Assembly: GCF_014696225.1 (NCBI RefSeq)
Contig: NZ_JACJPV010000006.1
Span: 62,001 to 126,000 of the forward strand
Length of the DNA: 64,000 bases
Source: Anabaena sp. FACHB-1237
GTDB lineage: Bacteria > Cyanobacteriota > Cyanobacteriia > Cyanobacteriales > Nostocaceae
Reading direction: 5' to 3'
Part shown: positions 12,963 through 62,980 of the stretch, piece by piece
How the letters are laid out: the number at the start of each line of letters is the position of its first letter
How positions within the stretch are numbered: position 1 is the stretch's first letter
Notes under the pieces: generated by a model
What the model saw: only the letters and a program-made list of their open reading frames with translations
Told to the model about the DNA's origin: nothing
Databases searched by the model: none
Made by a program: the position numbers and the translations under genes

Positions 12963-12995
12963 ATATCCCCGACTTCTTTAAGAAGTCGGGGATAT
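12963..12995. repeat. Palindromic repeat CCCCGACTTC family
   Basis: A near-perfect palindrome with arms ATATCCCCGACTTCTT and AAGAAGTCGGGGATAT and a one-base centre. Related copies occur at 19885-19915, 42088-42116, 48574-48645 (arms separated) and 61737-61769. It could act as a terminator in either direction. Confidence 0.7.
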
Positions 12996-52234: not shown

Positions 52235-54064
52235 TTACAGTTTACCAGTTTTAAAAAAAAGAAAATTGACACGACCTATAGACCTACTTCCTCCACCTAC
52301 ACCCTTTCCATCCCAATCATCCCAAAATCTAGCAGGCAGGTGTCCTTGAGGTGATGATATATTAAACGTGACATCTTTATACCACAACCTCCGTCCTCCT
52401 ATCCTCCATCCTACTCTATCGCCAAAGGCAGTCCAGATTTGATCATTATATTCGTTAGTGCCACCCAAACTTTGATAAATCTGTTTCTGCACAGAAAAAC
52501 CAAAGTGCCCATTACTGTACTTGATCCACAAATCATCAATGACATGAAGATCATCATCAGGAAATAACATGATCCTGAAAGTTTCCTTATCCGCTTCTTT
52601 CCATTGACCACATTTTAAAAATTGCTCTAGTTTTTGACAGCAGCTTGGTATAGTAGTATTAACAACTTCTGAATTAGATTTAATTCTGGATACTAGAAAA
52701 GAAAACCCTCGTCGTACATCACTTCGATATTTTCCATTTTTTTTCAGTGGATAAATTGCAGGTAAGTGTCCTTGTGGTGCAGAAGTATTAAAAGTTAACT
52801 CTTCATAATATAACCACTTATTTCCTATCCTCCATCCTACTCTATCGCCAAAGGCAGCCCAGATTTGATCATTATATTCTTTAGTGCCACCCAAACTTTG
52901 ATAAATCTGTTTCTGCACAGAAAAACCAAAGTGCCCATTACTGTACTCGATCCACAAATCATCAATGACATGAAGATCATCATCAGGAAAATGATCAATA
53001 CTTGTTTCATTTAACCAACCTTCTTTTTTTCGATTTGTTAGCGCTAACATGATCCTGAAAGTTTCCTCATCCGCTTCTTTCCATTGACCACATTTTAAAA
53101 ATTGCTCTAGTTTTTGATATCCACTGACTACAGGTAATTCTGTAACAGCTAGAGAAGCAACTAGGTTAATATGTTGATTTACAGGATTAATCTCATTAAT
53201 AACTTCTGGAACAGATTGATAACGATACTTGGGAATAGGATGTGCTAATTTGTCCAAAATCTTACCCAATTTATCACTAACCACATTTCCATTCAAGTAA
53301 TCTCGCCATACCCATTCCCCTTCTAAGGAACTATATAAATCAAAGGGACTAATTCCTGTTAATAAATGGAAACAACTCACACCCAAACTATACAAATCGC
53401 TGCTAAATAATGGTTTACCCATAGACTGTTCAGGAGCGCAATATTCAGCCGATCCTATAATTGTTCCTATAGCTGTACGCTGCTGTGGCTTTACTACCTT
53501 AACTGCGCCAAAGTCTACTAAAAATAGTTTGTTATCACTATGACGACGTATGATATTATCTGGTTTGATATCCCGGTGTATAATACCCTGGCTATGAATT
53601 GCTTCTACAACTGGTAATAAGTCCTGTAATAAATCCCAAATTTTAGACTCGTTAAATATTCCCTGGTTTTTTAATTCTGTTGATAAATTATCACCATCAA
53701 TAAACTGTTGTACCAAATACAAATGGTTGTTGTCACTGAAGTATGCTAATAAAGCGGGAATCTGTGAATATTCACCAAGTTTTTGTAATTGTTGCGCTTC
53801 TTGTAAAAACAATTCTGTAGCTTTTTGTAAACCTACTGTTTCTTGGTTTGGGGGTACAAATTGCTTAATAACGCATTTTTCGTTTAATTTGTCAATATCT
53901 ACCGCCAAATAGGTTTTAGCAAATCCACCACTACCCAATGTTTTAATTGGTTGATAGCGGTTTCTCAATGTTATTAAGGTAACTCCACAGCTAGGACAAA
54001 ATTGGGTGTGTTCAGGAACTGGGGGGTTATGACACCCTGGGTTGAGACAACATATTTGATTCAT
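52235..54064 (-). CDS. Serine/threonine protein kinase with two GUN4 domains
   Basis: A 609-residue protein. It begins with a cysteine cluster (CCLNPGCHNPP, FCPSCG) that may bind zinc. A Hanks-type kinase follows with LGSGGFAKTYLA, the ATP-site lysine in CVIKQF, the catalytic loop HRDIKPDN and DFGAVK. Two GUN4-like domains follow (from about residues 318 and 478), each with LEQFLKCGQWKEAD and FGDRVGWRIG. GUN4 binds porphyrins and stimulates Mg-chelatase. The second copy is nearly identical to the first at DNA level but lacks 18 residues (after RIML). All catalytic kinase residues appear intact. Confidence 0.9.
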   Translation of the reverse strand: MNQICCLNPGCHNPPVPEHTQFCPSCGVTLITLRNRYQPIKTLGSGGFAKTYLAVDIDKLNEKCVIKQFVPPNQETVGLQKATELFLQEAQQLQKLGEYSQIPALLAYFSDNNHLYLVQQFIDGDNLSTELKNQGIFNESKIWDLLQDLLPVVEAIHSQGIIHRDIKPDNIIRRHSDNKLFLVDFGAVKVVKPQQRTAIGTIIGSAEYCAPEQSMGKPLFSSDLYSLGVSCFHLLTGISPFDLYSSLEGEWVWRDYLNGNVVSDKLGKILDKLAHPIPKYRYQSVPEVINEINPVNQHINLVASLAVTELPVVSGYQKLEQFLKCGQWKEADEETFRIMLALTNRKKEGWLNETSIDHFPDDDLHVIDDLWIEYSNGHFGFSVQKQIYQSLGGTKEYNDQIWAAFGDRVGWRIGNKWLYYEELTFNTSAPQGHLPAIYPLKKNGKYRSDVRRGFSFLVSRIKSNSEVVNTTIPSCCQKLEQFLKCGQWKEADKETFRIMLFPDDDLHVIDDLWIKYSNGHFGFSVQKQIYQSLGGTNEYNDQIWTAFGDRVGWRIGGRRLWYKDVTFNISSPQGHLPARFWDDWDGKGVGGGSRSIGRVNFLFFKTGKL

Positions 54065-54171
54065 GGTTGTGCAGTGGTAGATACATTTATAATTAATATA
54101 ATTAAGTATTTACAATGTAGCACAAATTGGTAATATTGTTTGGGGAAATTTGAATAATACGATTTAACCTG

Positions 54172-54320
54172 TTATTGCCATTTTTCTATAAGATTCGCTT
54201 CTGTGTATTTTGGGAGATAATCATTTTCTAAACCCCTCATAGTCTGTTGAAGTAAAAATTGATTCCATTCTTCATTTTCTGTATTATTCCTATATGATAA
54301 CAAGGGGTTATAAAGTGTTG
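54172..54320 (-). pseudogene. C-terminal relic of a small accessory protein
   Basis: One minus-strand frame reads PTLYNPLLSYRNNTENEEWN, then FLLQQTMRGLENDYLPKYTE and ends NLIEKWQ and a stop at 54172. The ending resembles small antitoxin-like cyanobacterial proteins, but the family is not certain. There is no start codon of its own. It is joined to a Uma2 relic at 54325 in a different frame. Confidence 0.4.
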
Positions 54321-54324
54321 GTTT

Positions 54325-54420
54325 GCGATCGCTAATGTAATTTTATTATGATTATCAGTTCCCCCGGTCATCGCTATAATTTCCCCATCCCGATATCCAG
54401 TGGACTAATAATGCTTTATT
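54325..54420 (-). pseudogene. Uma2-family fragment
   Basis: The minus strand reads GYRDGEIIAMTGGTDNHNKI then TLA. This matches the N-terminal block EYRNGEIIPMTGGSGNHNKI of the intact Uma2 at 59233-59823. Upstream, AATAAAGCATTATT corresponds to its KALY segment but with a frameshift and a TAG. The fragment ends at a HIP1 octamer, after which unrelated sequence begins. Confidence 0.7.
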
Positions 54421-54468
54421 TGAAACAGAAACATGATGTATAGCAATCCTAAATAACCTTTTTCTAAG

Positions 54469-55623
54469 TTAAAATTTAAGACTGAATAATGCTTTTAATG
54501 GCATTGATAAAGTGAAAAAACTTAGAGAGCGTGTATTTTCCAGATTTAAATAAGGTGCTATCATTCGTGAACCGTTTATTTTTTGGTATTCAGGTACAAG
54601 TGATTTTAGTTCTTTTGATGGACTTTCAAGATTATCAGGATTTCTGAATGCATATTCTCGAAATTCCTCTGCAAGTTCATATAAAAGTTTAGGGTAAAGT
54701 TGATTTTCTGGTTCTTCTACACATAACAAAGGATGAGGGTTAGGATCATATAAAAGCACCAAATAAGCAAACATTTTGATAGTTCCATCAGAAACATATC
54801 TTGCTAAAAAAGGATCATGAAAATCACCATCTTTAAACCTTAATAATACTCTTCCTTCCTCAGTAATTTTTGCATCAACTTGACTAATACCTGGAACTCT
54901 TTGTTTTAACTTTTCCAGAATTTTTTGGAAAATAACAGGATGTCTTTTATAGAGAAATTCCGTCACCATTGCTAAGTTTTCGCCCTCTTTGGAAAGATGT
55001 TCTGCATAACTAGATTCCCGTTCTAGTCGCGCTTGTTGGATATGAAAATCAGAAATATGCCAATTTTCAAGTAAATTACCAATTGCTTTACTTGCAGGGA
55101 ATTTTTCAAATTGTGCTAAACCTTTTAAAGGCAGAATATCTGGAGATTTTAACTCGTGGTCTTCTCTTTTTAATTCTTTTTCATCTATAATCTGATCAGG
55201 CTCATTAATAACAGCTTGTCCTTTACCTTTAGAAAAATCAATAAACCTCCAAGGTTGACCTTTACTACCTCTGCGGTATTGAAGAATCTCTCTTTCTATG
55301 AGAGGAAGACCATCTTCTTCGGCGATTTGCAAAGAATAAGTAATTAAGGGTGATTTATCAGCTAGACGAAATTTTAATTCAATTTCTATTAGTCCGGTTG
55401 AATTGCGGCTTCTTACTTCCTGAAATCCTCGACCTCCTCCTAATTTCGTGAGGGCAACATGAACATTATCGGTTAAAGCATCTTTGAGAAAACTGAACAC
55501 ATTAAAAAGTGTGGTTTTACCAGTACCATTTGCACCGACAAAAACGCACATCTTGGGAATTTTTTTAATTTCCACATTTTTGAAAGCTTTAAAGTTTTTT
55601 AGATGGATACTTTCGATTTTCAT
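54469..55623 (-). pseudogene. AAA ATPase collapsed onto a DUF4276 C-terminus
   Basis: A 384-residue frame. Residues 1 to about 325 are an AAA_21/OLD-type ATPase related to the gene at 60534: Walker A VGANGTGKTT (30-38), RYVSDGTIKMFAYLVLL and the Walker B LLCVEEPENQL. The STHSP block that should follow is missing. Instead, after EEFREYA, the protein runs FRNPDNLESPSKELKSLVPE to NTRSLSF, which lines up with the end of the DUF4276 partner (FRNPDTIKGGTWEELDKILK to NNQSRSF). An internal deletion therefore joined two genes. It is probably inactive, or a novel fusion. Confidence 0.75.
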
Positions 55624-55719
55624 GACTCACCATTAAAAGATTTTTTGAATAGCAATTTGTGTCAATAGTATAATTTATTCGCAAAAGAATTTTTTTCATT
55701 AATTAAGTTCGCGATTTAT

Positions 55720-56142
55720 TTAATTAAAAATAAAATTTAATGCCTGTTTGATAATTAATTCTTGATCTACCATATTTCTCAAGGTTAATTCATCATAAAT
55801 TCCGCCAAAAGCTTCTAAAGAAGCATTATCTAAAGCTCGATTATAAGCTCCTGGTAAAATTTCTTCTATTTCTTGTTTGTTCATGTAATATCCTCCAGCT
55901 TTTCTGCGTTTGTTGATCCGATCAATTGCGTCAATAGCATTCCGAATGGAAACATCCCAAGAATGAGTTGTCCTTTTTTCTGCCTGTTGTTTAATTAAAT
56001 GGACTAAAAGCACTACACAATAGCTATAAATTTTATTGATTTTATCTTCTTTGCTCATTTCTTCTAATTCATCAATTAAAGATAGAGCCGCTTTTAGGTT
56101 GCCAGAAACCACTAATTCTCTGAGTTCTAGTAATTCTTCCAT
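55720..56142 (-). CDS. DUF29-family protein
   Basis: A 140-residue helical protein resembling cyanobacterial DUF29: ELRELVVSGNLKAALSLIDE, MSKEDKINKIYSYCVVLLVH and KRRKAGGYYMNKQEIEEIL are the segments I recognise. Function is unknown; DUF29 genes are highly multiplied in cyanobacteria, often beside toxin-antitoxin genes. It lies upstream of the collapsed ATPase on the same strand, with about 100 bases between, and just downstream (in its own direction) of a pgk fragment. Confidence 0.7.
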   Translation of the reverse strand: MEELLELRELVVSGNLKAALSLIDELEEMSKEDKINKIYSYCVVLLVHLIKQQAEKRTTHSWDVSIRNAIDAIDRINKRRKAGGYYMNKQEIEEILPGAYNRALDNASLEAFGGIYDELTLRNMVDQELIIKQALNFIFN

Positions 56143-56184
56143 GATTTGCTCTTTCCTTGAAGTTTGCTATTTCTAGCATAGCGC

Positions 56185-56275
56185 TGATAACGCTATCAAC
56201 TACAGATACACCACTAATGATAACGGTTGTTGTGCAAGTTTTGCCAATTTCTGCTAGAGTATGAGCGATCTCGCA
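56185..56275 (-). pseudogene. Fragment of phosphoglycerate kinase gene
   Basis: Aligned without gaps to 61885-61975 inside pgk, 44 of the 50 bases 56221-56270 are identical to 61921-61970, and similarity continues left to about 56191. On the minus strand it reads [20 protein letters not shown], against [20 protein letters not shown] in pgk. The catalytic glycine loop (GGGDS) is disrupted, and only about 30 codons remain. This is a decayed duplicate. Confidence 0.8.
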
Positions 56276-56408
56276 AGCTCTGACTTATCAGTTCGCTTCC
56301 GTATCCGCAGTAAGCACAATCACAACACATAAAATTCAGAAATTAAGCTCCCACGAAGAAGCCTTTGTCAAGTAAGATAGAATCAAAGGACTGTATAAAG
56401 GTAAAAAT

Positions 56409-56741
56409 ATGCAAATAGAGGATTATTTTGAATTTTTAGATCCAGACGATATCCGCATTAAGGGTCATAGAATCGGTATTGATGATGTGATTGATTATTA
56501 CTTACAAGGATACATACCTGAACAAATTCTGGAAGATTTGCCATCGCTAGATTTAGAAAAGATTCACGCTACTATTACCTACTATCTCCATAATCGTGGG
56601 GAAATAGATGCTTATATGTTGCGGTTGGCTAGGTGGAGAGAACAGCGTTATCAAGAAGCTGCGGCTAATCCTTCCCCGATGATACAGCATTTGAGAGCAA
56701 TAAAGGCACAACGAGAACAGGAGCGGCTTAATCTTGTATGA
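56409..56741 (+). CDS. DUF433-family antitoxin-like protein
   Basis: A 110-residue protein with the DUF433 winged-helix-like core: the segment IRIKGHRIGIDDVIDYYLQG is followed by PEQILEDLPSLDLEKIHATI and TYYLHNRGEIDAYM. DUF433 proteins are often the antitoxin of a PIN-like (DUF5615) toxin. Here the next frame starts inside its stop codon (ATGA overlap) and encodes only the beginning of such a toxin, so the antitoxin may be an orphan. Confidence 0.8.
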   Translation: MQIEDYFEFLDPDDIRIKGHRIGIDDVIDYYLQGYIPEQILEDLPSLDLEKIHATITYYLHNRGEIDAYMLRLARWREQRYQEAAANPSPMIQHLRAIKAQREQERLNLV

Positions 56742-56827
56742 AGATCCGTTTCTTGCTTGATGAAAATTTGCTTGATGAAAATTTGTCACCAAAGATAAAG
56801 TTTGTGTGGGGTTATGTGCTAATATAG
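56738..56827 (+). pseudogene. Truncated DUF5615-like PIN toxin
   Basis: Overlapping the antitoxin stop by 4 bases, a 29-codon frame begins MKIRFLLDENLLDENLSPKI. The MKIRFLLDENLSP start is typical of DUF5615 PIN-like toxins, but a 15-base unit (CTTGATGAAAATTTG) is tandemly duplicated at 56756-56785. After LSPKI the sequence no longer follows the family and stops at 56827. The toxin is lost. Confidence 0.65.
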
Positions 56828-56859
56828 TAAGTATCTAAATTATTACCTAATATTAAATT

Positions 56860-58857
56860 ATGATGTCGTTAAACCCTCCTCTCAATAAAGAAGATTTTAT
56901 TAAGTCTGGCTGGCAAGAAGTAATTGATAACAGCGAGAGAAAAGATTGTCAGAGCTATGACATGGCATTCTGGAATAAAGCGAAGAAAGCAGAAAAAGCG
57001 GGAAATACTAGAGAACAGGCAGTTTTTGGAATTTTAGCTGCTATAACTGGTGCTGCTATCGAACCAAAATCAAACGATGAATTTTTAAATCAAATTTTTA
57101 GTAACTTCACAGAAGAACATTTAAACTTTCTAAGTGAGATTGTACTTGAAATATCAGATCCAGAACTTCAAGCAAGAGTCGCTGATATTCTCTGGGTGAA
57201 AAAGGGTGACTATCGAATGGGAAAGTTAGCTGTTGATGCTTATTTAAAATCAGCTAAGGAATTAGAACATCGTGAAGAATGCTCTAATTGTACAGATGAG
57301 ATTGAAAGGCTGTTGAAAGAGGCATGGACTGATTGTACATACAGAATTGAAAGGGCTTTGAGGTTAGCACTTAAAATTAATTATAAGCCAGAAATTGTTG
57401 TTGAATATATAGATGAAGTTTTAAACCGTAACCAAGGAAAAGATCCGTTATGGTTATCTGTCAAATTAATGGAACTTTTGTTAGATTGTAAACTTGGCAA
57501 TGCTAATAAATATTCTATTCTTGCTGAAAAAGGAGCAATTTTTGCAGAATCTAATGGAGAGTGGGATAAAGCTAGGAGATGGTGGGAAATTAAAGTAGAA
57601 TGGCATCGTATTGAAAAGAATTATGAAAAATTATATAAATCAAAAATTCTTGCTGCTGAAACTTACATCAAGGAATCTGAAGATTCGTTAACTAAATATC
57701 CAACCCCTTACTCCAAAGCATCTCATGACTTACAAAAAGCCTTTGAAGCATTTGAAAGATTAAAAAGCCAAGGTACAGAAGAGGAAAGAACTGCTATAAA
57801 CACTAAATTAGAAGAAATTCACAAACCTCTTCTTGAGTATCAGCAGCAATCATCTAATGAGTTAATAAAAGTTTATTCTGAGTTTGATATTAGCAATGAA
57901 ATAGAACTAGCTCAATCACAGGTTAAAGGAAAAAAATTCTCAGAAGCAATATTAGCTTTAGCTTTGTTAGGAAGTCCTCAAAAAGTTTTAGACCTTCGCC
58001 AGATGGTAGAAAGAAATTCCTTGTTATCTCAATTCATGCCAATAAAGATAAAAAATGATATGGGAAAGACTGTTGCACGTCAACCTATAGAGCCAAATAA
58101 AGCAGAAGAGGCAATCCTTTTTGAAATGTACAGGATAGCAATTGTGACTCATAGATGTCATACTCAAGCATTTATTGAACCAGCTAGATATCAAATATTT
58201 TCAGAACACATATTACAAAAAGCTGAAGATAATAGAATTAAAGAGACTGATTTAATACCATTAGTTTCAAATAACCCCTTTGTACCACCAGGAAGAGAAA
58301 AGTTATTTGCAAAAGGTCTTTACGCTGGTTTGATAGGAGATTTCATAACCTCTACTCATATTTTAATTCCTCAAATTGAAAACTCTGTTCGCTACTTACT
58401 TTTGAAAAGAGGAGTAATCACTTCAGGAATTGATAATAAAAATAATGGTATTCAACAAGAAGATAACTTAAATTCAACGCTTTATCCCAGTAAATATCCA
58501 AAAATTACTTCTATTTTTGATGAAGATACTCTTCTCGATATTCGAGGTTTACTAATTGAACATTCTGGCTCAAATTTAAGAAATAAAATGGCTCATGGTT
58601 TAATTAGTGATGATGATTTTTCTAGTTCTATTTTCTCTTACTTATGGTGGTTAACATTACGGTTATGTTTTTGTATAGGAATATTAGTTCCTCAAGAAAT
58701 TGTAGAGGAATCTAATCCTTGGATTAAATTTGCTGTTATGTTTAAAGATGATCCATTATTTGATGAATTTGTCGAAGAAATGGCTAAAAATCGCCGGGAA
58801 TTAGATGAGGAAATAGCTAGTTACGAAGCATCTTTAGAGGAGAATGATGTGGCGTGA
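56860..58857 (+). CDS. DUF4209-domain protein (HEPN-like), 665 residues
   Basis: A large helical protein with an N-terminal 350 residues of helix-rich, possibly repeat-forming sequence and a C-terminal DUF4209-type region. That region shows LIPQIENSVRYLLLKRGV and the motif NLRNKMAHGL near residues 573-581; R574 and H579 fit the HEPN R-x4-H pattern of RNases. The gene ends in GTGA, overlapping the next start by 4 bases, so it is coupled to a PIN-domain nuclease. DUF4209 proteins are uncharacterised; a toxin or abortive-infection role is inference from the HEPN motif and neighbourhood. Confidence 0.75.
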   Translation: MMSLNPPLNKEDFIKSGWQEVIDNSERKDCQSYDMAFWNKAKKAEKAGNTREQAVFGILAAITGAAIEPKSNDEFLNQIFSNFTEEHLNFLSEIVLEISDPELQARVADILWVKKGDYRMGKLAVDAYLKSAKELEHREECSNCTDEIERLLKEAWTDCTYRIERALRLALKINYKPEIVVEYIDEVLNRNQGKDPLWLSVKLMELLLDCKLGNANKYSILAEKGAIFAESNGEWDKARRWWEIKVEWHRIEKNYEKLYKSKILAAETYIKESEDSLTKYPTPYSKASHDLQKAFEAFERLKSQGTEEERTAINTKLEEIHKPLLEYQQQSSNELIKVYSEFDISNEIELAQSQVKGKKFSEAILALALLGSPQKVLDLRQMVERNSLLSQFMPIKIKNDMGKTVARQPIEPNKAEEAILFEMYRIAIVTHRCHTQAFIEPARYQIFSEHILQKAEDNRIKETDLIPLVSNNPFVPPGREKLFAKGLYAGLIGDFITSTHILIPQIENSVRYLLLKRGVITSGIDNKNNGIQQEDNLNSTLYPSKYPKITSIFDEDTLLDIRGLLIEHSGSNLRNKMAHGLISDDDFSSSIFSYLWWLTLRLCFCIGILVPQEIVEESNPWIKFAVMFKDDPLFDEFVEEMAKNRRELDEEIASYEASLEENDVA

Positions 58858-59288
58858 GTATATATATTCTCGATACTAATATTGTGACTCTTTTTCAACA
58901 CAAAAATACTCTAATTACTCAGCGTATTTGGTCTATTCAGCCTAGTAGTATATTTATTACAGTTGTGACTTTTCAAGAACAGTTAGAAGGTAGGTTAAAA
59001 CAGGTAAATAGTAACAGTCAAAAAACTGAAAAACTAATATCTGCTTATCGAGATTTGCGAAACCTTCGTGATTTTTATAGTAGTGTAAATTTATTGGATT
59101 TTAATGAAGGAGCTTGCGAATATTTTAAAAAACTGCGTCAGCAGAAAATTAATACAGGTACACAAGATTTAAGAATTGCTGCTATAGCTTTAGTTAATAA
59201 TGCAATTTTAGTCACTCAAAATTCCCAAGATTTTAACAAAGTTCCTGATTTAAAAATGGAAGATTGGAGTAAATATAAAATAAACTAA
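58854..59288 (+). CDS. PIN-domain ribonuclease-like protein (VapC-type)
   Basis: A 144-residue PIN protein. Expected acidic residues are visible: D7 in YILDTNIVTL, E42/E45 in FQEQLEGRL, D105 in GTQDLRIAAIAL and D126 in TQNSQDF. Start is the GTG at 58854, overlapping the DUF4209 stop by 4 bases; no better ATG exists. VapC-like PIN proteins cleave tRNA or mRNA and normally pair with a small antitoxin; here the upstream partner is a 665-residue HEPN-like protein instead. Its 3' end overlaps the convergent Uma2 gene by 56 bases. Confidence 0.85.
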   Translation: MSIYILDTNIVTLFQHKNTLITQRIWSIQPSSIFITVVTFQEQLEGRLKQVNSNSQKTEKLISAYRDLRNLRDFYSSVNLLDFNEGACEYFKKLRQQKINTGTQDLRIAAIALVNNAILVTQNSQDFNKVPDLKMEDWSKYKIN

Positions 59289-59823
59289 TTTCAAAATCAA
59301 GATATTGCAATTTAACAATATCATTTTCAGATTTATATTCTCTAAAAATCCATTCTCCCTCATTAGTTTTGCTATAGTGCATGACTTGATATTGATTTTG
59401 TTCTACTAAAACATATTCTTTAAATTGGGGAATAGAACGATAAAAAGTAAATTTCTCACCTTGATCATAATTTTTTGTAGACTTAGATAAAACCTCAACA
59501 ATTAATAAAGGATTAGTCACAGTAGTATTATTTTTACTTGTATAACTAGCTTGACCATCAGTTACAATTACATCAGGATAAGTATATTGTCTTAGTTGTG
59601 GAATCCATAAACGCATATCTGCCATAAAAACTTCATATTTTTTGCGTCTCAGGGCATATAATAAAATAGCAGCAATAGCTAGTGTAATTTTATTATGATT
59701 ACCACTTCCTCCAGTCATAGGTATAATTTCTCCATTGCGATATTCGCTTTTATAAAGTGCTTTTTCCTCTAATTCTAAATATTCTTCAGGGGTGTAAGTA
59801 TGTATGCGAGTTTGTACTTCCAT
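59233..59823 (-). CDS. Uma2-family (DUF820) endonuclease-like protein
   Basis: From the ATG at 59823 (MEVQTRIHTYTPEEYLELEE, with AAGGAGA just upstream) the protein has 196 residues; the upstream start at 59862 lacks a ribosome binding site. Family blocks are SEYRNGEIIPMTGGSGNHN, YTYPDVIVTDG, NPLLIVEVLSKST and KFTFYRSIPQFKEYVLVEQ, giving the PD-(D/E)xK-like core (D in PDV, E-V in VEVLS). Function is unknown. It lies beyond DUF4276 in the direction of transcription, matching the relic order at 54.3 kb. Confidence 0.9.
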   Translation of the reverse strand: MEVQTRIHTYTPEEYLELEEKALYKSEYRNGEIIPMTGGSGNHNKITLAIAAILLYALRRKKYEVFMADMRLWIPQLRQYTYPDVIVTDGQASYTSKNNTTVTNPLLIVEVLSKSTKNYDQGEKFTFYRSIPQFKEYVLVEQNQYQVMHYSKTNEGEWIFREYKSENDIVKLQYLDFEISLFYIYSNLPFLNQELC

Positions 59824-59937
59824 ATTATTCTCCTTGACAATATTTTTATTTGCAGATTTCATTTAATTATAATCAAACTACTACACCAAAATCTTAATTA
59901 ATAAAATTTGATTGATTGTATCATAATCAGATAAATT

Positions 59938-60522
59938 TTAACTAATCATTCTTCTTAATCCATCACGAAAAACCTGAAAACTTCTTGATTGGTTGTTTTC
60001 CACATCCATGTGGGGGGATACTTTTTGAGCAAAGTCCATTTTTTGTAACCCTGTCTCATAGCCATATCTTTTCAAAATTTTATCTAATTCTTCCCATGTC
60101 CCACCTTTGATAGTATCTGGATTACGAAATTTAGCTTGTTGGGATAAAGAAGCAGGAATTTTTTCATATTCAGCCCTGATTGCTGCTACATCACCGATAA
60201 ACCAAGACTCCAGTTCTTCTACAACAATTCGATGAAGAACAATATTTCCTTTTTTTTGGGTTACAATGCTACTAGCATCACAGAGTTTCTTCTTTAATTT
60301 TTGACAATCTGATCTATCTTCGTCTACTAAAATGACAATTCGCCAGTCATCAGTTACAAAATTAGCATAGGCTTTCATGCGCTCAGGCAATCTTTTTAAA
60401 AGTCTATCTTTACTTTGAAAGTTATGAATTTTAAAAGTATGAACATTACCTATAATTTTAGGAACAATTTGTTTTAAAGCAATTTCTGTGGAGGCTTCTT
60501 CTACTAAAAATTCTATGTGCAT
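59938..60522 (-). CDS. DUF4276-family protein, Toprim-like partner of the ATPase
   Basis: A 194-residue protein. The N-terminal strand EFLVEEASTEIALKQIVPKI carries a glutamate like the first Toprim motif, and IVILVDEDRSDC supplies the D-x-D pair; VEELESWFIGD and FRNPDTIKGGTWEEL are segments I associate with DUF4276. Toprim-like proteins paired with AAA ATPases act in anti-phage systems such as OLD, PARIS and Rlo-type pairs. It starts 11 bases after the ATPase stop, so the two are surely co-transcribed and probably form one machine. Confidence 0.75.
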   Translation of the reverse strand: MHIEFLVEEASTEIALKQIVPKIIGNVHTFKIHNFQSKDRLLKRLPERMKAYANFVTDDWRIVILVDEDRSDCQKLKKKLCDASSIVTQKKGNIVLHRIVVEELESWFIGDVAAIRAEYEKIPASLSQQAKFRNPDTIKGGTWEELDKILKRYGYETGLQKMDFAQKVSPHMDVENNQSRSFQVFRDGLRRMIS

Positions 60523-60533
60523 AATTGATATTA

Positions 60534-61709
60534 CTAATAAGGTAATCCTCTCAGATATCCTTCAGACCAGAGATCACCTAAACCAGCTTCGGTTTCTATA
60601 AAATGTTTAGCATTCTCAATTTTATCAGCCCTGGTAACAGTTGCATAACCATTATCATCTCGTTGAAAAATCCAGAGTTGTCTAGCATCTTTGATAGTAT
60701 TAACAAAAAATGGTGAGTGGGTAGAAACAAAAACTTGTGCGCGTTGGGAATATGCTTTTAACTCTTCACTCAAAGGATCAAGAAGCCGATGGTGAAGCCC
60801 ATTTTCTGGTTCTTCAATACAAAGTAGTTGGGGGGGATTAGGATCATTTAATAATATCAAATATGCCAATAATTTAAGTGTTCCATCTGAAGAAAAACGT
60901 GCTAGAAATGGCTTACTAAAAGGTGCATCTTTAAATAAAAGAGCGAGTCTACCATCAATTGTTGGTTCAGATTCTACTTTTTCTAATTTAGGAATACGTT
61001 TGGCTAATAACTTCAAAATTTTGGATAAAGTTTCTTGATGTTCATCAGCAAGGTATTGAACTACATTGGCAATATTGTCTCCTTCACGAGTAAGATGTTC
61101 CGTTGCACCAGCCGTTGCTAATTGACGAGCTTGATCTGGGATAAAATAGGAAAGAAACCATCCTTCAATAAAACGGCGTAAACTGGCAATACGTGGGTTA
61201 TCTGACAATTGACCAATAGTTTTAATTGCTAAAGAACTTGGATCATCCATTTTATAGGAGATTCTATTGTCAGTTATTTCTGGATTTTCACCACTAATTA
61301 CTACACCTTCACCATTTTCAAACTTCAAAAAATCAAATGGTTTGCCATGAATACCTCGTTTCCATTTGAGAGTTTCTCTGGAAACAATTGGCGCTCCATT
61401 TTGTAAAGCAATAGCAACTGTATAAGTAATTTTAGGAGATTTCTTATTTTCACGATATATAATTACAATTTCAATTTCCTGACCTCCACAATCACGGGAA
61501 ATAACTTCTTGAAATCTTCCCCGCTTTTCTAAGGCTTTTTTCACATTAGTAGTGAGACAATCTGAAAGAAATCCTATGACATCAAAAAAGGTAGTTTTGC
61601 CACTACCATTAGGACCAAGGAAAACAGAAAAAGGTTTAATATCTTTTAGGGTAATATTTTGCAAAACCCTATAGTTTTTGACAGAAATTTCTTCAATTGT
61701 TGCCATCAC
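60534..61709 (-). CDS. AAA_21/OLD-like ATPase of a two-gene module
   Basis: A 391-residue ABC/SMC-type ATPase. Walker A is GPNGSGKTT (residues 32-40), a signature-like RFSSDGTLKLLAYLILL follows near residue 280, Walker B is LLCIEEPENGLH and the switch histidine is in VFVSTHSPFFV. The N-terminal EEISVKNYRVLQNITL is the usual start of RecF/OLD-type ATPases. There is no nuclease domain of its own; the next gene (DUF4276) should supply it. Two adjacent ATGs make the first residue uncertain. It is transcribed away from pgk, with a palindrome between. Confidence 0.9.
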   Translation of the reverse strand: MMATIEEISVKNYRVLQNITLKDIKPFSVFLGPNGSGKTTFFDVIGFLSDCLTTNVKKALEKRGRFQEVISRDCGGQEIEIVIIYRENKKSPKITYTVAIALQNGAPIVSRETLKWKRGIHGKPFDFLKFENGEGVVISGENPEITDNRISYKMDDPSSLAIKTIGQLSDNPRIASLRRFIEGWFLSYFIPDQARQLATAGATEHLTREGDNIANVVQYLADEHQETLSKILKLLAKRIPKLEKVESEPTIDGRLALLFKDAPFSKPFLARFSSDGTLKLLAYLILLNDPNPPQLLCIEEPENGLHHRLLDPLSEELKAYSQRAQVFVSTHSPFFVNTIKDARQLWIFQRDDNGYATVTRADKIENAKHFIETEAGLGDLWSEGYLRGLPY

Positions 61710-61736
61710 ATTATCACTTGTATAACTTGAATATCC

Positions 61737-61769
61737 AGATCCCCGACTTCTTTAAGAAGTCGGGGATCT
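61737..61769. repeat. Palindromic repeat CCCCGACTTC family between pgk and ATPase
   Basis: Perfect arms AGATCCCCGACTTCTT and AAGAAGTCGGGGATCT with a one-base centre lie 9 bases past the pgk stop. It should terminate pgk transcription before the ATPase gene. Confidence 0.75.
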
Positions 61770-61777
61770 GATGTTAA

Positions 61778-62980
61778 TTACGCTTCATCCAAAGCTGCAA
61801 TACCAGGTAAAACTTTACCTTCTAACAACTCTAAACTAGCGCCACCACCGGTGGAAATGTGGCTCATTTGATCAGCTAAACCGACCTTTTCTACAGCCGC
61901 TACAGAGTCACCACCACCGATAATGGTAGTTGTGCCGGTTTTGCCGATTTCTGCTAAAGTATGAGCGATCGCTTCTGTACCCTTAGCAAATTTATCAAAC
62001 TCAAACACACCCATAGGACCATTCCATATTACAGTCTTACAATCAGCTAAAGCCTCTTGGAAAAACTTCACAGAATCAGGACCAATATCTAAACCCATAC
62101 CATCAGCAGGGATATTCTCAATAGCTACAGTAGTAGCATTAGCATCAGGCGCAAACTTATCTGCGGAAACAATATCTGTAGGTAACAATAAAGCTACACC
62201 ACGTTCTTTAGCTTTAGCTTCTAATGACTTAGCTAACTCTAACTTATCTTCTTCTACCAAAGACTTACCCACACTTAAACCACGTGCTTTGTAGAAGGTG
62301 AAAATCATTCCACCACCAATAATCAACTTATCGCACTTTTCTAATAGAGTTTCAATAACTCCAATCTTACTAGAAACCTTAGAACCACCAATGATAGCAG
62401 CTAAAGGACGTTGAGGCTTTTCAATAGCACTTTGTAAGTATTGTAATTCCTTCTCAACCAAATAACCAGCTACGGAAGGACTTAAATATTTAGTTACACC
62501 TTCAGTAGAAGCATGAGCGCGGTGTGCAGTACCGAAAGCATCATTCACATAAAAATCAGCGTTAGATGCTAACTTTTGGGCAAACTCAGGATCGTTCTTT
62601 TCTTCTTCTTTGTAAAAACGTACATTCTCTAATAAGAGAACTTCACCATTTTCTAACGCGCTCACTTTAGCAGCTACATCATCACCAATACAGTCATCAG
62701 TTTTGACAACTTCCTGGCCTAATAACTCAGAAAGACGTTTAGCAACAGGAGTTAAACGCAACTTGTCATCTACACCCTTGGGACGGCCAAAATGACTTGC
62801 TAAAATCACCTTAGCACCTTTTTTGGTCAAATCTTGGATAGTTGGCAGCGCAGCGCGAATACGAGTATCATCAGTAATATTACCTTGATCATCTACAGGT
62901 ACATTAAAATCAACACGAACTAAAGCACGTTTACCAGAGATATCAGCAGCAGACAAACTAGCTAAATTTTTTTTAGACAC
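61778..62980 (-). CDS. pgk: Phosphoglycerate kinase
   Basis: A 400-residue enzyme of glycolysis and the Calvin cycle that interconverts 3-phosphoglycerate and 1,3-bisphosphoglycerate with ATP. The signature [20 protein letters not shown] is near the N-terminus (about residues 19-38), with [20 protein letters not shown], the hinge [13 protein letters not shown] and the nucleotide loop [17 protein letters not shown] near residue 353. The full enzyme is intact. A decayed fragment of its C-terminal part lies 5.7 kb away at 56185-56275. Confidence 0.98.

Follow-up and report, generated by a model that had tools for sequence, protein, structure and literature searches.

What does a two-gene unit made of an ATPase and a DUF4276 protein do on the minus strand of a 64,000-nucleotide stretch of the Anabaena sp. 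FACHB-1237 genome (contig NZ_JACJPV010000006.1, positions 62,001 to 126,000; hereafter, the window)? An earlier note, made from the sequence alone, had described an OLD/RecF-type ATPase followed after 11 bases by a 194-residue protein with a Toprim-like residue pattern, and had proposed a relative of the known antiphage ATPase–Toprim pairs with DUF4276 in the place of DUF4435 or RloB. The pair is an intact copy of HEC-01, a catalogued candidate system, and hence no new candidate; it probably serves phage defence, and we assign a probability of about 0.68 to the reading in which it works as a guard resembling PARIS and RloAB, with the ATPase restraining a Toprim nuclease and releasing it on infection. 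What is added here beyond the HEC-01 catalogue is the predicted fold of DUF4276, its link to DUF4435, and the restriction-operon context, which together offer a testable chemistry for a widespread catalogue entry, with an ABC ATPase holding a Toprim nuclease in check, and a wider pattern, the placement of ATPase and Toprim genes in restriction operons.

The two genes are co-directional, with the ATPase first and DUF4276 second, and their coordinates and spacing agree with those given in the earlier note (Table 1); the spacer has the same length in the relatives at loci L037-L040 (locus numbers are ours). The ATPase start codon is GTG, directly followed by ATG. Assignment to HEC-01 rests on PADLOC-DB 2.0.0 models, whose matches span almost the whole of each protein: the ATPase matches HEC-01A PDLC04182 (expect value [E] 6.4e-155, residues 2-387 of 391) and the DUF4276 protein matches HEC-01B PDLC04202 (5.6e-85, residues 1-193), membership being judged by model matches per gene plus adjacency and not by PADLOC's system rule. 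AriA, mad3, AbiLi, and other PADLOC models match the ATPase far more weakly than HEC-01A. The two-gene architecture with near full-length matches is that of HEC-01, and nothing sets the window copy apart from the type, its place after pgk and a decayed second copy being local features. The A and B labels in PADLOC look swapped for another pair of models, PDLC04143 ("HEC-01A") matching DUF4276 proteins and PDLC04144 ("HEC-01B") matching ATPases.

HEC stands for Hma-embedded candidate, and activity is reported for HEC-04 (both in excerpts of PMC12111858) and for several HECs (excerpt of PMC12988326), while HEC-01 as a defence system appears as a list entry in an excerpt of one paper (PMC12724379). 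In the literature searched, we found neither a mechanism for HEC-01 nor the term "DUF4276", and "PF14103" occurred in none among the matches listed. No Hma label was seen among the Pfam or PADLOC matches listed for nine window open reading frames (ORFs; 52235-61709). Embedding in Hma is presumably the discovery context of the HEC-01 type and not a requirement of its models.

The ATPase carries a Walker A motif (GPNGSGKT, residues 32-39), an SDGT signature (274-277), a Walker B motif (LLCIEEPE, 295-302, with IEEPE at 298-302), and a switch His (331). In an alignment of the window protein with 79 relatives, K38, S274, D275, G276, E299, and E300 are found in all 80 sequences and H331 in 78, so the Walker motifs and switch His named in the earlier note are not only present but near-invariant. 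All Pfam matches are to ATPase-type families, with AAA_21 (6.7e-30) and AAA_15 (1.1e-17) ahead of weaker ones, and the lack of a nuclease domain in this protein is thereby borne out as far as Pfam shows. The predicted ATPase part has an ABC/SMC-head fold, with PtuA and AriA among the structural matches of the model. In 3 relatives (L112, L114, and L107), the ATPase frames are 556, 556, and 595 residues long, which suggests an N-terminal extension unless the chosen starts are over-long.

The second protein matches Pfam PF14103 (DUF4276) over residues 7-189 (E 6.1e-25). In the alignment of 56 sequences that also served as input for structure prediction (the window protein and 55 of 61 suitable relatives), the previously described E and D-x-D pattern corresponds to E8 (56/56), D67 (54/56), and D69 (53/56), and E103, E105, and K161, which the earlier note had not listed, are each kept in 55 sequences. 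These features of the ATPase and the DUF4276 protein are not due to chance, and we take the order of E8, D67, D69, E103, E105, and K161 to fit the active site of OLD and other Toprim proteins. The AlphaFold2 model (predicted local distance difference test score [pLDDT] 93.7, predicted template modelling score [pTM] 0.89) was compared with known structures using VIA-align, whose top group consisted of OLD Toprims (6nk8, Z 11.8 over 165 residues at 3.7 A; 6njv, 10.5; 6njx, 10.3), the uncharacterised protein PH0156 (2p62, 10.1), a chain of the PARIS complex (8ux9_A, 9.7), and TsOLD (6p74, 9.7), the following row scoring only 7.5. We take 8ux9_A to be AriB because 8ux9_B is named AriA. DUF4276 is thus predicted with high confidence to adopt a Toprim fold, an assignment for which we rely on this second aligner and on profiles, since Foldseek alone gave no match at E ≤ 0.001. 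The top rows of the Foldseek search against the PDB were prenyl synthases (template modelling score about 0.25), which we dismissed as sharing a common sheet arrangement. Against viral models, Foldseek gave no match at E ≤ 0.001, an RloB-like protein coming third (E 0.02), and PDB sequence searches with the single DUF4276 protein and with the 56-row profile returned no convincing relative.

Profile comparison with hhalign connects the family to the PARIS effector. A set of 86 DUF4276 proteins aligned with 7 DUF4435 proteins at E 4.7e-4 and a score of 33.4, above all 40 controls (39 block shuffles and one reversal), the best of which reached 17.8, and the alignment places DUF4276 E8 and D67-x-D69 opposite the E and D-x-D of DUF4435. 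With the 56 close DUF4276 sequences alone the comparisons had been weak (P 0.029 for OLD, 0.1 for DUF4435, and 0.18 for RloB), and the addition of 30 diverse members brought a clear gain for DUF4435 alone. In AriB, E26 is needed for tRNase activity (excerpt of PMC12409363), and we infer that E8 of DUF4276 is the same glutamate. With a confident Toprim model and a DUF4435 alignment in catalytic register, the predicted fold agrees with the one on which the earlier note had staked its case, and DUF4276 is very probably a metal-dependent Toprim nuclease.

Among known systems, PARIS shares the layout of the pair: its OLD-family ABC ATPase and Toprim protein likewise lie on separate genes and are sometimes fused (excerpt of PMC9122126; here, at locus L094). 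Both have a Toprim effector, predicted in our case, with conserved E and D-x-D, as reflected in the 8ux9_A match and the DUF4435 homology. They differ in that the window effector belongs to PF14103 and that of PARIS to PF14491 (DUF4435), and in that the window ATPase matches HEC-01A at 6.4e-155 but AriA at 2.8e-28; no DUF4435 match was found in the window DUF4276 protein (Pfam) or anywhere in the host genome. Like RloA/RloB and AbiL, the pair occurs as ATPase plus Toprim within type I restriction-modification (R-M) operons (RloB, excerpt of PMC10440598; HEC-01, 10 of 82 loci, see below), whereas the window effector has no Pfam match to RloB (PF13707) and the window pair itself lies outside such an operon, with no hsd family among the nine ORFs and pgk; a separate RloB is encoded elsewhere in the host genome (G000:C1). 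OLD and GajA of Gabija have the same two domain types, and the DUF4276 model matches OLD Toprims better than any other structure, but in OLD classes 1-3 and Gabija the domains form a single polypeptide instead of two gene products, and the DUF4276 protein has no Pfam match to OLD-like_TOPRIM (PF20469). MAD3 of MADS belongs to the ATPase superfamily of the window ATPase (NF047739); membership in MADS was rejected on the MAD3 score, 135.1 bits against an NCBIfam curated cut-off of 420. The kinase encoded at 52235-54064 matches mad6 at 5.6e-38 and PD-T4-6 much better, at 1.3e-186.

The two genes are conserved together. Of 438 ATPase relatives confirmed on genome contigs, we kept the best 80 (L037-L116), and DUF4276 lies next to the ATPase in 76 of these, 71 of the 80 meeting a simple downstream-gap rule. 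The 76 include 4 loci in which an over-long DUF4276 ORF overlaps the ATPase (L076, L089, L108, and L110), and at L094:6971-8818, on a contig titled Akkermansia muciniphila (a metagenome bin), a single 615-residue ORF contains both ATPase and DUF4276. Among the 4 non-pairs, one contig ends within the ATPase (L106), two have apparent short remnants of a DUF4276 start (L098 and L113), and in one (L116) none was found. The DUF4276 frame is split or shortened in at least 8 of the 76 (L047, L051, L052, L067, L068, L074, L078, and L115), and the ATPase frame of L043 is short. Contig titles of the ATPase relatives, many of them metagenome bins, name cyanobacteria, Chloroflexi, Planctomycetota, Flammeovirgaceae, Methanothrix, and others. 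On one contig, binned as Thiomargarita (L042), the pair is 79% and 66% identical to the cyanobacterial pair, reflecting either transfer or a binning error. Viewed from the DUF4276 side, the ATPase lies directly upstream in 28 of 30 cyanobacterial loci, which are best-scoring matches and not a random draw; in the two exceptions, the ATPase is found farther upstream, beyond two ORFs of the opposite strand (L025, also L178), or is a fragment (L027). The pairing that the earlier note had made its case depend on is therefore conserved from both sides. DUF4276 matches were found in 65 of 291 sampled genomes of the phylum.

In other genomes, the pair recurs among restriction and mobile-element genes. 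At 10 of the 82 loci L037-L118 (L044, L047, L058, L064, L078, L087, L102, L114, L115, and the IMG/VR contig L118), it is placed in the same orientation between hsdM/hsdS and hsdR, its genes there often overlapping or nearly touching, and at least one side of the pair carries hsd genes in 14 of the 82, some of these matches being weak. Models of HsdS match 7 of 114 immediate neighbour ORFs, a scan without a control set that covered 114 of 128 such ORFs (all but 13 from L037-L043 and one from L094). On the Meiothermus plasmid pMtWR-220, the gene order is methyltransferase, DUF262, S subunit, DarT, DarG, ATPase, DUF4276, and R subunit, the HEC-01 pair adjoining DarT (3.2e-70) and DarG (6.7e-137; L295:6019-9627); this type I R-M operon thus contains two accessory modules, DarT/DarG and HEC-01. 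On plasmid pSYSM of Synechocystis PCC 6803, a laboratory cyanobacterium that provides a tractable copy, the pair (WP_011153560/WP_011153561; PADLOC HEC-01 at 1.7e-196 and 2.2e-66) is flanked by a cysteine desulfurase matching DndA/SspA and by a DUF433 gene, the latter adjoining a gene annotated as a phosphorothioation-associated methyltransferase, with a partial SspC match nearby. Rahnella plasmid PRA1 carries the pair within a prophage-like stretch, and on the conjugative Pseudomonas plasmid pGLE121P3 it has conjugation genes on both sides. Altogether, 10 plasmid records have a match, 4 of them from Synechocystis, and 1 of 50,697 phage records (25% identity).

A survey of 20 cyanobacterial loci used 137 of 181 neighbour ORFs, after removal of the pair itself and of ORFs shorter than 130 or longer than 900 residues; the control consisted of 137 size-selected ORFs out of 166 in regions 100 kb away (16 of the 20 regions used). 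Among the best 25 of 153 families in the test set were mad3 (5 matches), AriA (4), HEC-01A (2, one of them the ATPase of the L178 locus itself), and Uma2 (6), with single matches to Septu PtuA, PtuB, a type II methyltransferase, HsdS, and SspA/DndA; the best 25 of 118 control families included AbiLi, AriA, mad3, and PD-T4-6 kinases, with 2 matches each.

Under the guard reading, the OLD-family ABC ATPase, itself without a nuclease, would be both sensor and restraint, and DUF4276 would be a metal-dependent Toprim nuclease (E8, D67-x-D69, E103/E105, and K161) that is inactive while held by the ATPase. Infection would lead the ATPase to release or activate the Toprim protein, which would then cut nucleic acid, so that growth stops before phage production. 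The target would most likely be RNA of the cell, for instance tRNA, the reported substrate of AriB. We infer the physical complex, the nuclease activity, its substrate, the trigger, and the abortive outcome alike, and for host-RNA cutting with growth arrest in particular we would put the odds somewhat short of even. The arrangement follows that of PARIS, in which AriB is sequestered by a hexamer of AriA until an anti-restriction protein appears (PMC11455837; PMC12409363). Related AAA/TOPRIM_OLD pairs are validated as toxin and neutraliser (excerpt of PMC10440598), and a role as backup effectors alongside BREX has been proposed for OLD ATPases linked to TOPRIM (excerpt of PMC12839542). Given its recurrence within R-M operons of type I and in a phosphorothioation cluster, the pair may respond to a phage product that inactivates these systems, and such embedding makes a guard over restriction plausible. 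The earlier proposal of a related ATPase–Toprim system with DUF4276 in the DUF4435 or RloB place is supported by the fold, the DUF4435 profile, and the conservation of the pair, although that pair was already catalogued.

Several results weigh against this reading. The hhalign comparisons of DUF4276 with RloB (E 0.031, 1 of 40 controls as good) and with OLD (E 0.026, 0 of 40 as good) are weak, and Foldseek of the DUF4276 model against the PDB gave no match at E ≤ 0.001. A fusion model built from the paired ATPase–DUF4276 alignment is of moderate quality (pLDDT 78.3, pTM 0.78; no interface was derived) and shows no OLD-like arrangement of the two domains. The hsd operon arrangement was not found in 68 of the 82 loci (11 query proteins, many contigs short), and on one of the 5 plasmid loci viewed, Pseudanabaena pPSE7367.01, the pair has no annotated defence neighbour. 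Finally, the neighbours listed at the 20 cyanobacterial loci are mostly ordinary genes and the enrichment of defence genes over the control regions is weak.

An alternative that we regard as possible but doubtful is a DNA cutter in two pieces resembling OLD and Gabija, in which the ATPase would act as a clamp or nucleotide sensor and DUF4276 would cut phage or plasmid DNA without killing the host; its odds overlap with those of the guard reading, and the two are not meant to sum to 1. The closest structures are OLD Toprims, described as DNA nucleases (excerpt of PMC10568477), the predicted ATPase part resembles SMC, Rad50, and PtuA heads, and association with R-M operons would fit DNA targeting. 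The best profile match is nonetheless to DUF4435, the family of the reported tRNase AriB (excerpt of PMC12409363), and not to OLD, the two-gene layout is that of AriAB and RloAB, and the fusion model does not reproduce the OLD domain arrangement.

A toxin–antitoxin module kept for its own maintenance, with the ATPase neutralising a toxic Toprim protein and phage defence incidental, is unlikely, even though AAA/TOPRIM_OLD toxin-neutralisation pairs are validated (excerpt of PMC10440598) and plasmid records carry the pair. Its repeated placement among type I R-M genes and its presence in a phosphorothioation cluster argue otherwise, as does a decayed second copy in the window, which joins the N-terminal part of an ATPase to the C-terminal part of a DUF4276 protein (Table 1). 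Comparison with an uninterrupted paralogue on contig C36 puts the break at window position 54648/54649, where a deletion of about 0.6 kb has removed the switch His together with the acidic residues of the Toprim part. Such decay of a whole module shows that its loss is tolerated, though other DUF4276 copies may buffer it, the host genome having three DUF4276 matches without stops.

That the pair is an auxiliary restriction subunit, which would tune or replace restriction in type I operons and not form a guard of its own, we consider very unlikely. The often tightly packed loci between hsdM/S and hsdR and the Meiothermus plasmid would suit such a role; the 68 loci (11 query proteins, contigs often short) and the nine window ORFs in which no hsd arrangement was found imply that the pair probably works alone.

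The surroundings in Nostocaceae bear on how the pair is inherited. Within the family, a relative is present in 31 of 145 genomes and the window type, at 87% identity or more, in 6, including the host's own. The pgk gene lies directly upstream in all 6 of the closest named cyanobacterial loci, which overlap with the genomes of the family survey; an exception is G064 (87%), in which pgk is about 3.4 kb from the pair (L287). Synonymous divergence (dS) between the window and L037 is 0.10 and 0.11 for the pair and 0.61 for pgk, and with L038 it is 0.64 and 0.59 against 1.43 (pgk is saturated for L041), which points to transfer of the pair into a shared site, while ratios of nonsynonymous to synonymous divergence of 0.08-0.27 show purifying selection on the pair. 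Four genomes (G310, G385, G374, and G151) have another HEC-01 subtype, about 40% identical to that of the window, no more than about 4 kb past pgk; G374 has it alongside the window type. A household role in DNA or RNA metabolism, with stable retention next to pgk, would fit the constant upstream gene, at similar protein identity, and the purifying selection, but is scarcely credible given the patchy distribution, the low dS of a pair that seems to move by transfer, and the different subtype near the equivalent pgk site in other genomes.

In several Nostocaceae (window positions 52235-61709 and L281, L282, L288, L265, and L273), the post-pgk stretch holds HEC-01 subtypes, Uma2, PIN, DUF7380/DUF4209, DUF433, and DUF29 genes in varying sets and order and is a possible hotspot; HEC-01 was not seen in most of the 20 pgk regions fetched. 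A broader proposal, which we consider rather doubtful as a whole, would make DUF4276 a further branch, beside DUF4435/AriB and RloB/AbiLii, of two-gene ATPase–Toprim guards over restriction, a host-RNA cutter fired when a phage disables type I R-M or phosphorothioation systems, with Nostocaceae subtypes swapped at a post-pgk defence hotspot.

Table 1. Features of the HEC-01 locus and its surroundings, in window positions.
Feature	Position	Strand	Description
HEC-01 ATPase gene	60534..61709	minus	391 residues; ORF, Pfam, PADLOC, conserved motifs; proposed sensor/inhibitor
HEC-01 DUF4276 gene	59938..60522	minus	194 residues; ORF, Pfam, PADLOC, AlphaFold2, conserved residues; proposed nuclease effector
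Intergenic spacer	60523..60533	minus	11 bases between co-directional genes; ORF coordinates/sequence
Decayed second HEC-01 copy	54469..55623	minus	N-terminal ATPase part (residues 1 to about 325) fused to C-terminal part of DUF4276
pgk (phosphoglycerate kinase)	61778..62980	minus	PF00162, 1.7e-168; directly upstream of the ATPase; not part of the system
Palindrome between pgk and ATPase gene	61736..61770		Core is a dispersed-repeat copy; terminator-like by simple scan
Uma2 gene	59233..59862	minus	PADLOC candidate PDC-S03, 1.2e-27; downstream of the pair

The Uma2 gene, which also follows the equivalent pair in L037 and L281, is probably a separate module from the HEC-01 pair. Further along, a DUF7380/DUF4209 gene (56860-58857) matches PADLOC candidate PDC-S39 (1.7e-244) and has a 4-base overlap with a PIN-domain gene. 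The perfect palindrome at 61741-61765 occurs again at 12967-12991 and is one copy of a genome-wide dispersed repeat; exact matches in the genome number 54 forward and 59 reverse (palindromic copies being counted once per strand), against 0 for the backwards control.

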